Shown: positions 1 to 39,899 of the stretch, piece by piece | Position numbering within the stretch: position 1 is the first letter of the stretch | Layout of the letters: every line of letters begins with the position of its first letter | Source of the DNA: a virus | IMG/VR virus record: IMGVR_UViG_3300001728_000002 | Span: 1-39,899 of that record | DNA length: 39,899 bases | Strand: one strand, 5' to 3' | The notes under the pieces: model-generated | Database searches by the model: none | What the model was told of the DNA's origin: nothing | What the model saw: only the letters and a program-made list of their open reading frames with translations | Position numbers and translations under genes: made by a program

Positions 1-59
1 AAATCCAAAAATTGACTGTGGCATGCGCCCGCCGATGTGGCTAAACCCGTCGCTACCAA
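1..59. other. host flank left of prophage
   Basis: This is host chromosome just upstream of the left tRNA fragment. It should hold the native promoter of the tRNA-Arg gene. A TTGACT box is visible at 12-17, but no convincing -10 box follows at the usual distance. No coding region can be judged in so short a stretch. The assignment as host DNA follows from the att repeat starting at 60. Confidence 0.7.
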
Positions 60-101
60 GCGCCCGTAGCTCAGTCGGATAGAGCATCAGATTCCTAATC
101 T
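60..101 (+). repeat. attL: attL core: 42-bp copy of the tRNA-Arg 5' half
   Basis: These 42 bases are identical to 39799-39840. They hold the 5' acceptor strand, the D-arm, the anticodon stem-loop and the first three bases of the 3' anticodon stem of tRNA-Arg(CCU). Identity stops sharply at 102, where phage sequence begins, so no functional tRNA is encoded here. The fragment would still be transcribed from the host promoter to its left, reading into the integrase gene from the antisense side. Confidence 0.93.
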
Positions 102-141
102 TGATTGCGCATTGGCTGTAACCCTCGTGAAACTGCAATTT

Positions 142-1200
142 TCAGGCTTTCTTTTTTTCGATTGTGCCGTGGATTGTGCCGTTGGTGCCGGTTTCGGTGC
201 CAATTTCGGCGGCGTTGTCGATCGCGCTTTGCATGGCGCTGCTGGCGTGGTCGAAGGGGGTTTGCTGCTGATCGCTGACGATATGCGCATAGCGCATGGT
301 CATGTCGATGCTGCTGTGATCAAGCGCGTCGCGCAGTGATATCAGGTCTGCGCCGCCCTTACGCGCCCAGCTGGCGAATGTGTGGCGCAGATCGTGAAAC
401 CGGAAGTCCTGCAGCCCGGCATCGGCGACGGCGCGGATCCAGCGGCGTTTGAAATTGGTCCAGTCGAACACATCGCCTTTCGGCCTGCGGATCGCGACCA
501 GCGCGGTGCGCAGCGGCGCGGAGATGCGCACGGTCACCGGTCTGCCGGCCTTTGTCCGGGGCACGGTGATCGTGCCGCCGGGCAGGTCGACCTGATGCCA
601 TTGCATTTCGCGCAAATTGCCCCGGCGCAGGCCGGTGGCGACGGCGGCGATGATGATCGGGCGCAGGTCGGCATGGGCGGCCGCGATCAGCGCGGCATAT
701 TCCTCCGCCGACAGAAAGCGCACACGCCACGGGCTTTCCGGATATTTCAGCGACTTCCAGTTGAGTGCCGGCGCAGTCTTTCCATGCAATTTGACCGCAT
801 GGTTGATCGCCGCTTTCAGATAGGCCAAATCGCGGTTGATGGTCGGGCCGCTGGCGCCCTCTCCGCGGCGGCGGGCGCGAAAATCGAGCAGGCGGGGGGC
901 GAGTAGATCCTCCAGCATGATCGAGCAGTCGAGACAGCGGGACAGATTTTCAATATTGGACCAGATCGCATCGCTGCTGCGGGTGTGGCGGGCATGTTCG
1001 TCCCACCAGGTGGCGATGACATGGGTGAGCGCCCAGCTTTGCCGGTGGGTGGGCCGCGCCTTTATTTCCGCGAGGAGCGTATAGGCATGGATTTCGGCTT
1101 CGCGCTGGCTCTTGCAGCCCGAGCTGCCGCGATATCGCTGACCGTTCCAGGCAAAGTCATATTGCCAGTAGGGCGAACCGGTTCTTTGATAGATGCGCAT
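142..1200 (-). CDS. int: phage tyrosine integrase
   Basis: A 352-residue site-specific recombinase that inserts the phage into, and with an excisionase removes it from, the tRNA-Arg gene. The N-terminus (about 1-50) resembles the arm-binding domain of lambda-type integrases, followed by a core-binding region (about 55-140) and the catalytic domain. The catalytic set is visible: Arg192 (TGLRRG), His269 and Arg272 (HDLRH), His295 (DHSS) and the nucleophile Tyr304 (MRYAH). The ATG at 1200 has an AGAGG ribosome binding site about 9 bases upstream. It lies at the very end of the prophage next to attL, as expected. Its first 139 bases overlap the HTH gene in another frame, and its Gly-Thr-rich C-terminus coincides with the TGTGCC array. 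Confidence 0.96.
   Translation of the reverse strand: MRIYQRTGSPYWQYDFAWNGQRYRGSSGCKSQREAEIHAYTLLAEIKARPTHRQSWALTHVIATWWDEHARHTRSSDAIWSNIENLSRCLDCSIMLEDLLAPRLLDFRARRRGEGASGPTINRDLAYLKAAINHAVKLHGKTAPALNWKSLKYPESPWRVRFLSAEEYAALIAAAHADLRPIIIAAVATGLRRGNLREMQWHQVDLPGGTITVPRTKAGRPVTVRISAPLRTALVAIRRPKGDVFDWTNFKRRWIRAVADAGLQDFRFHDLRHTFASWARKGGADLISLRDALDHSSIDMTMRYAHIVSDQQQTPFDHASSAMQSAIDNAAEIGTETGTNGTIHGTIEKKKA
161..201 (+). promoter_or_regulatory. left array of TGTGCC repeats, candidate integrase arm sites
   Basis: Four phased copies of a KGTGCC motif lie at 163-168, 175-180, 184-189 and 196-201. The first two are inside perfect 10-bp repeats (ATTGTGCCGT, 161-170 and 173-182). A matching array in the same orientation lies on the other side of the att core at 39672-39710. 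Spacing of 9-12 bp is close to one helical turn, as expected for arm-type sites of lambda-like tyrosine integrases. The array lies in the last codons of the integrase gene, where it encodes repeated Gly-Thr pairs. Confidence 0.5.
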
Positions 1201-39157: not shown

Positions 39158-39368
39158 AACGGACCAGAGGGACGATCCCCGCCCGGAATATCCACAAGGC
39201 GCTGTCGATAGCGAGGATCTGCACGAAAGCTGGGTGAGCAGCGCTCTTGATTGGGGGGACCGCAAAAACCTGCTCGCCTATCGGTGGTGCGAACTCTGGA
39301 ACAAGTTCTCGACCGAAGCGGTGGATTGCGGCGTCAAGCCGCCGGGTGTCGATCGGGGCCCTGATTGA
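39036..39368 (+). CDS. outer-membrane lipoprotein spanin (Rz1-like)
   Basis: A 110-residue protein with a lipoprotein signal peptide (KALLIASVIVAVPSCGG; lipobox VPSC, acylated Cys23), then a proline-rich stretch (FLPPAPAQIETDQRDDPRPE) and a small C-terminal domain. Its first 122 bases lie inside the Rz-like gene in another frame, the classic embedded Rz1 arrangement, but it is longer than most Rz1. AAAGGA lies about 9 bases before the ATG. Its end runs into the convergent HNH gene by 35 bases. Confidence 0.82.
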   Translation: MKIANFQIKALLIASVIVAVPSCGGRDSNVNFLPPAPAQIETDQRDDPRPEYPQGAVDSEDLHESWVSSALDWGDRKNLLAYRWCELWNKFSTEAVDCGVKPPGVDRGPD

Positions 39369-39621
39369 TGCGAGCGGACATATCCCGAGGCGATATGTCC
39401 GCTTTCTCTGAATTACATGGGAAGCAGGACGTCACCAGATTTCTGCTCTTGTTACTGCCGCCTTTGGATCGCGGTATAACGTGATCGACCGTGGCCCCAT
39501 TCCGGACTGTTGACGGATCTATAGCCGGATTGTGAACGACCTTTATGCCGCAATAGCGGCAGCGAAATTTGTCACGGCGCCAGACCTTCCTTTTGACGTA
39601 AGGCTTCGGAGCTCCGGACAT
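39334..39621 (-). CDS. HNH endonuclease
   Basis: A 95-residue HNH nuclease with a zinc-binding CRYCG pair, the HNH core DHVIPRSKGG-N-SRNLV and a second CFPCN pair. Phage HNH proteins of this size often work with the terminase in cos cleavage. Here it lies at the far right end, next to the integrase in the circular form. The ATG at 39621 with AAAGG upstream is preferred to the GTG 60 bases earlier. Its last 35 bases overlap the Rz1-like gene on the other strand. Confidence 0.85.
   Translation of the reverse strand: MSGAPKPYVKRKVWRRDKFRCRYCGIKVVHNPAIDPSTVRNGATVDHVIPRSKGGSNKSRNLVTSCFPCNSEKADISPRDMSARINQGPDRHPAA
39373..39409 (+). terminator. late-operon terminator inside HNH gene
   Basis: A perfect 12-bp stem AGCGGACATATC / GATATGTCCGCT with a 7-base loop, followed by TTCTCT. 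It lies 4 bases after the Rz1-like stop. The same bases encode an A-D-I-S-P-R-D-M-S-A stretch of the convergent HNH gene. Confidence 0.75.
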
Positions 39622-39671
39622 TATTTGGTCGCCTTTGATAATGGTTCTGATCCGTTTGGCTCTGTCATCAC

Positions 39672-39712
39672 TGTGCCGCACATTGTGCCATTAATGTGCC
39701 GTGATGTGCCGT
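39672..39712 (+). promoter_or_regulatory. right array of TGTGCC repeats, candidate integrase arm sites
   Basis: Four copies of TGTGCC at 39672-39677, 39684-39689, 39695-39700 and 39705-39710, spaced 10-12 bp, two inside ATGTGCCGT. They match the array at 161-201 in sequence and orientation. In the circular phage the two arrays would flank the attP core. Confidence 0.5.
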
Positions 39713-39716
39713 ATAT

Positions 39717-39736
39717 TTCCGTTTTGTTCCGTTTTG
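39717..39736 (+). repeat. tandem 10-bp repeat
   Basis: TTCCGTTTTG repeated twice in tandem between the TGTGCC array and the promoter of the tRNA. It may be an accessory (excisionase) site. Confidence 0.6.
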
Positions 39737-39737
39737 G

Positions 39738-39766
39738 TTGACAGGCGGGCGGCGGTTCAATATCGG
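39738..39766 (+). promoter_or_regulatory. phage-borne promoter for the rebuilt tRNA-Arg gene
   Basis: TTGACA (39738-39743), 17 bases, then TATCGG (39761-39766). Transcription would start near 39773, about 26 bases before the tRNA. All of it is phage DNA, left of the att core. It could replace the host promoter that stays at the other end of the prophage. Confidence 0.55.
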
Positions 39767-39798
39767 GAATCCCGCAGAAACCAAGCGTTTCAAGGCAC

Positions 39799-39840
39799 GC
39801 GCCCGTAGCTCAGTCGGATAGAGCATCAGATTCCTAATCT
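39799..39840 (+). repeat. attR: attR core: 42-bp copy, 5' half of tRNA-Arg
   Basis: Identical to 60-101. The host 3' half of the tRNA follows directly, so crossing-over within these 42 bases rebuilt the gene. Confidence 0.93.
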
Positions 39841-39875
39841 GGGGGCCACAGGTTCGAATCCTGTCGGGCGCACCA
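39799..39875 (+). tRNA. tRNA-Arg (anticodon CCU)
   Basis: A complete cloverleaf: acceptor GCGCCCG / CGGGCGC, D-arm GCUC / GAGC, anticodon stem UCAGA / UCUGG with loop UUCCUAA (anticodon CCU at 39833-39835, reading AGG), T-arm ACAGG-UUCGAAU-CCUGU, discriminator A and encoded CCA. Bases 39799-39840 derive from phage attP and the rest from the host. Confidence 0.96.
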
Positions 39876-39899
39876 ATACAGATTTTTCTATTACTGAGT

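Follow-up and report, generated by a model that had tools for sequence, protein, structure and literature searches.

Structure of the prophage and its target tRNA

The DNA analysed here, which we term the window, is the entire IMG/VR virus record IMGVR_UViG_3300001728_000002, a stretch of 39,899 bases. Its sole tRNA gene, detected by both ARAGORN and Rfam, is a tRNA-Arg(CCU) at 39799-39875, and an exact direct repeat of 42 bp occurs in two copies only, at 60-101 and 39799-39840. The left copy corresponds to the 5' half of tRNA-Arg(CCU) alone, and the right copy starts the complete gene, in agreement with the original prediction that the shared 42 bp represent the 5' half of the target. The principal features are:

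1-59 (+): host DNA, in which the upstream gene ends and the native tRNA promoter region is stranded; 69-83% identical to six empty sites
13-18 and 42-47 (+): probable native promoter boxes, TTGACT and the -10-like CTAAAC
60-101 (+): attL core, the displaced 42-bp 5' half of tRNA-Arg(CCU), identical to 39799-39840
142-1200 (-): tyrosine integrase, C-terminus facing attL (PHROG_1 integrase, E 1e-59)
163-180 (+): TGTGCC repeats on the integrase side, within the 3' end of int, read from the sequence
39334-39621 (-): small HNH endonuclease beside the right end, transcribed away from the tRNA
39672-39710 (+): four TGTGCC repeats in the phage arm that precedes the tRNA, shared with related arms
39738-39743 (+): predicted -35 box TTGACA (TTGAC invariant in 9/9 Arg-type arms)
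39761-39766 (+): predicted -10 box TATCGG, consensus TANCG (TA and G invariant in 9/9 arms)
39799-39840 (+): attR core, the phage-supplied 5' half of the rebuilt tRNA; a repeat copy, uninterrupted in a free attP
39799-39875 (+): rebuilt intact tRNA-Arg(CCU), CCA encoded (ARAGORN, Rfam)
39876-39899 (+): probable host DNA 3' of the tRNA, judging from its position to the right of attR

The integrase retains the HDLRHT and RYAH motifs in alignments, and every one of its relatives adjoins a 5'-half tRNA fragment. Inward of it lie genes for an excisionase-like protein, a repressor and a terminase. With an integrase beside att, and an intact tRNA and a fragment of the same orientation at opposite ends, the element fits the tDNA-integrating tyrosine-recombinase type; as the displaced 5' part lies upstream of the intact gene, it also fits the 5'-fragment class. 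The TGTGCC repeats at both ends are candidate arm-type sites for Int. Strand exchange is tentatively placed in the anticodon loop (about 39831-39837): identity between the repeat copies stops at the anticodon stem in the window, and in two related prophages (G622 and G534) the displaced copy loses identity directly past the anticodon loop.

At the right end the rightward late genes stop at 39368, 430 bp short of the tRNA. The HNH gene probably starts at a Met codon near 39621, and its open frame reaches 39681. Past the last rightward late gene, and within the 3' end of the HNH frame, lies a strong hairpin with perfect pairing, GCGGACATATC-GATATGTCCGC, followed by a T-rich tail (39372-39404; the fold of 39365-39425 is -23.5 kcal/mol); a terminator scan did not list this hairpin.

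Polarity of the insertion

Sites free of the element were sought with the exact 77-nt tRNA, using one genome per species, which returned 22 genomes, all of them Sphingomonadales judging from their titles. Six Parasphingorhabdus-type genomes (L012, L014, L019, L020, L021 and L024) have an empty site whose identical tRNA is preceded by 59 bases matching positions 1-59 of the window at 69-83% identity; at a seventh empty site (L028) the figure is 56%. In contrast, the 59 bases that precede the intact tRNA of the window show no similarity to the same seven sites (0.15-0.27, and 0.15-0.22 for the six alone). Since only the left flank resembles the empty sites, it is the native side and the right upstream arm is not native. 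The comparison with an empty attB in related genomes, which had been proposed as a check, thus sustains the view that the host promoter is stranded beside the truncated copy, as window 1-59 matches native upstream regions.

The same polarity emerges from a free phage contig (L003/L006), whose integrase is 67-70% identical to that of the window. Its attP consists of GTTGACT-N17-TAGCGG, the 42-bp core and the integrase, in that order, with a single core, phage arms on both sides and no host DNA between. Because this attP contains, without interruption, both the 5' half and the arm that precedes the tRNA, the two belong to the phage. Accordingly, the only intact gene does lie at the right end with phage-derived DNA upstream, as had been claimed. 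The reverse polarity, in which the left flank would be phage, the right upstream sequence native and the host promoter never displaced, was the arrangement that would have overturned this claim; we found no support for it, and, with both the empty sites and the free attP pointing in the opposite direction, we give it practically no credence. The 24 bases beyond the tRNA (39876-39899) gave no match in relatives because of their short length and variability. Among GTDB r220 representatives, the exact right flank of the window does not occur.

A family of prophages with the same layout

Searches with the integrase across the genus, family and order recovered eight further lysogens with the same layout, at tRNA-Arg(CCU), tRNA-Arg(UCU) or tRNA-Pro(UGG). 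All eight have a 5' fragment beside the integrase and phage-type DNA upstream of the intact tRNA, and in six (the first six below) a single contig contains both fragment and intact gene:

G001: tRNA-Arg(UCU), fragment to intact gene 37.6 kb
G108: tRNA-Arg(UCU), fragment to intact gene 40.3 kb
G201: tRNA-Arg(CCU), fragment to intact gene 38.6 kb
G622: tRNA-Arg(CCU), fragment to intact gene 38.9 kb
G640: tRNA-Arg(CCU), fragment to intact gene 40.6 kb
G400: tRNA-Arg(CCU), 5-kb remnant
G534: tRNA-Arg(UCU), fragment and intact gene on separate contigs
G428: tRNA-Pro(UGG), fragment and intact gene on separate contigs

The last two were presumably split by assembly, given that fragment and tRNA are on different contigs. 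A class-wide search of 385 Alphaproteobacteria genomes at E 1e-60 detected no further members; hence, within this sampling, the lineage looks confined to Sphingomonadales. The 5-kb remnant (L068, G400:C10:879300-885000) retains a truncated integrase frame and an arm with TTGAC-N17-TAACGA. Retention of the arm in such a degraded prophage is as expected if expression of the tRNA needs it.

A conserved promoter-like element in the phage arm

The original prediction had named, from the window alone, a TTGACA-N17-TATCGG box before the tRNA in phage DNA. This box subsequently proved to be present in all eight other Arg-type arms, namely those of the free phage (L006) and of G001, G108, G201, G400, G534, G622 and G640. 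In the window, the -35 and -10 boxes are separated by a 17-bp spacer and followed by 32 nt before the tRNA. The pattern TTGAC-N18-TANCG occurs once in the 39.9-kb window, precisely at this site, against 0.16 expected, and TTGAC-N18-TA is found within the last 90 bases of all nine Arg-type arms; in dinucleotide shuffles of the eight other arms the chance of the latter is 0-0.6% per arm. When the nine arms are aligned on the box, TTGAC, TA and the following G show an identity of 1.0, the C between them is present in 8/9, and identity across the 17-bp spacer falls to background level (0.17-0.44); the arms are mutually related and hence represent observations that are not fully independent. The element lies 49-62 bp before the tRNA, depending on the arm, whereas its -35/-10 spacing is constant. 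This conservation of the two boxes around a drifting spacer lends good support, at the level of sequence comparison, to the earlier proposal that the prophage supplies the promoter. We infer that the -35/-10 pair is a working promoter from which the tRNA would be transcribed.

With a matrix built from the phage arms, native tRNA-Arg upstream regions score higher than shuffles (mean 6.3 versus 2.3), suggesting that the host promoters look alike; the z-score of this test, 8.2, is inflated, since the sequences are related and the shuffles mononucleotide. The -10 consensus, TANCG, is missing its terminal T. In the sphingomonad Novosphingobium aromaticivorans, the -7 T is likewise absent from more than 80% of sigma-70 promoters (PMC8407463). 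A standard scan for sigma-70 promoters of the E. coli type did not report the box, because it demands the final T of the -10 that is missing here, and we accordingly set it aside as a test. The element at tRNA-Pro (G428) has no TTGAC, and carries TTGCGC-N17-TAAACC in the same place, a weak match given a 31% chance for TTG-N19..21-TA.

Between the -10 box and the tRNA, seven of the nine Arg-type arms also contain an inverted repeat of 5-6 bp that ends 5-7 nt before the tRNA (window, 39777-39791; L006, G001, G201, G400, G622 and G640). The repeats differ in sequence, including GAAAC..GTTTC, AAAACA..TGTTTT, GAATTC..GAATTC and GAAATC..GATTTC, with shuffle p-values of 0.01-0.18 each. G108 lacks the repeat, and the only one in G534 is unlike the others; both arms have leaders shorter by about 10 nt.

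The role of the element

Taken together, these comparisons make it very probable that the prophage joins a phage promoter and 5' half to the 3' half of the host tRNA, leaving the gene with a phage-encoded start that is kept by selection. In the proposed sequence of events, the tyrosine integrase of a temperate tailed phage would recombine in the anticodon loop of tRNA-Arg(CCU). On integration, the original promoter and its 5' half would end up at the far side of the prophage, beside the integrase, and the host 3' half would be joined to a 5' half and a promoter brought by the phage. This would leave the sequence of the tRNA as it was but make its transcription start phage-encoded. Selection is likely to have kept the promoter, because in lysogens at the UCU site no second gene for this tRNA is apparent.

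The element could instead serve recombination, with TTGAC-N17-TANCG as a site in the P arm for excisionase, integrase or a host bending protein, and the tRNA expressed from another phage promoter. In phage lambda, Xis, Fis and IHF bind between the arm-type sites and the core, and the element occupies just such a position between the TGTGCC repeats and the core; moreover, its distances cluster at 49-50 and 59-62, about one helical turn apart, as a nucleoprotein complex would favour. However, the invariant 17-bp spacing is the sigma-70 optimum, the two halves of the box do not form a direct or an inverted repeat, and the distance varies both to the core and to an upstream GTTCC element. The same pattern also stands upstream of native tRNA-Arg genes, and the G428 arm retains its TGTGCC and TTTCCG elements while exchanging the TTGAC box for another promoter-like pair. 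On balance, we regard a recombination site as the main alternative, but an improbable one. Still less likely is expression of the tRNA by read-through from upstream phage genes, with the box of little weight. The rightward late genes do run toward the tRNA, ending 430 bp before it at 39368, but late genes are normally silent in a lysogen, the HNH gene intervenes on the opposite strand, and the hairpin with its T-rich tail at about 39372-39404 follows the late genes.

Returning to the promoter interpretation, it appears reasonably likely that the lineage evolved a dedicated, selected tRNA promoter within attP, useful only once the phage is integrated, such that an essential tRNA of its lysogens (UCU in some) is phage-encoded. 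If so, loss of the phage arm would be lethal, and the lysogen would be tied to prophage remnants such as the 5-kb one described above.

Gene copy number and the decoding of AGG

tRNA-Arg(CCU) is single-copy in the relatives examined, and therefore the prophage probably fronts the sole such gene in its host. In the genomes checked, the tRNAs that match next best carry other anticodons, so the gene behind the prophage is the sole one of its kind observed; the completeness of these genomes is unreported, and an extra copy is conceivable. In the UCU-type relatives, no UCU gene was found besides the one behind the prophage. By wobble, tRNA-Arg(UCU) probably also decodes AGG, whereas AGA is not known to have a reader besides tRNA-Arg(UCU). 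The case for control of decoding is thus stronger for the UCU-type relatives. AGG is used at a low 3.3 per 1000 in 11 phage ORFs, and at 2.4-9.4 in small samples of the relatives' genes, so that a phage requirement for additional AGG decoding is not indicated. The suggestion that the prophage controls the decoding of AGG codons was overstated: nothing points to regulation, and tRNA-Arg(UCU) probably also reads this codon. The element looks like an ordinary housekeeping promoter, and the wording we support is that the prophage restores expression of the tRNA with a promoter of its own.

Relationship to known integrative elements

According to a review citing Williams 2002 (PMC8371274), bacterial tRNA genes keep their original promoter upon integration, with very few exceptions. 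Among the islands catalogued by Islander, 159/3919 are of the 5'-fragment kind (PMC4383910). Like the window, these have a tRNA target, a displaced 5' fragment, a rebuilt intact gene and island DNA upstream. Islander lists them by geometry, whereas the present lineage adds a conserved, element-borne, promoter-like box across the lineage and three tRNA targets.

In Thermococcales, pTN3-like integrases use the tRNA 5' half as attB, and the integrase promoter drives the tRNA (PMC8371274). The attB type is shared with the window, as is an element-borne promoter for the rebuilt tRNA, which in the window is predicted. In contrast, the pTN3-like int is split on integration and itself drives the tRNA, whereas the window has an unsplit int that is directed at attL and lies at the end opposite the rebuilt tRNA, and the tRNA is faced, from the other arm, by a separate predicted promoter. 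Islands specific to dusA, and the ICE SXT in prfC, also supply promoters to their target genes, for dusA as established by reporter (PMC8409611). They resemble the window in that insertion is in the 5' end of a gene and the element brings a promoter (predicted in our case), but their targets are protein-coding with an altered N-terminus, rather than a tRNA. Finally, in the tRNA-dependent lysogeny of mycobacteriophages, the phage tRNA promoter has been demonstrated by reporter (PMC10865867), and the lysogen depends on a phage-driven tRNA, as our reading would have it for the window. In that system the core is short and does not rebuild the tRNA, for which the phage has a whole gene elsewhere; in the window a 42-bp core rebuilds the host tRNA, and only the 5' half and the predicted promoter are of phage origin. 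A scan of the window for another tRNA gene found none besides 39799-39875.

The lineage thus belongs to the known, rare 5' class; its new contribution is the evidence, from comparison of relatives, for a dedicated and conserved promoter within attP. This prophage family of Sphingomonadales would constitute an exception to the promoter-keeping rule for which empty sites, lysogens and a free attP are all available for comparison, and offers a tractable system for understanding how a phage promoter gets tuned to replace that of a host tRNA. It also suggests a possible reason for the persistence of degraded prophages, namely that a prophage end may carry the sole promoter of a needed tRNA.

Additional observations at the integrase end

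Two putative promoters are aimed through the 5' half into int, antisense to it: the stranded host promoter in lysogens and, in the free attP (L006), the tRNA promoter of the phage. An antisense effect of either on int is possible. After the 5' half come T-runs derived from Lys codons of the int C-terminus (window 60-142). A terminator on this side that would shield int from the stranded host promoter was considered and rejected: T-runs and some hairpins are present, but the fold z-scores did not exceed those of shuffles. A distant relative of the integrase, with 38% identity, is followed directly downstream, in the same direction, by a tRNA-Arg(CCU)-like 5' half (L004:1317-1358), and the rebuilt tRNA might therefore lie behind int in that element.
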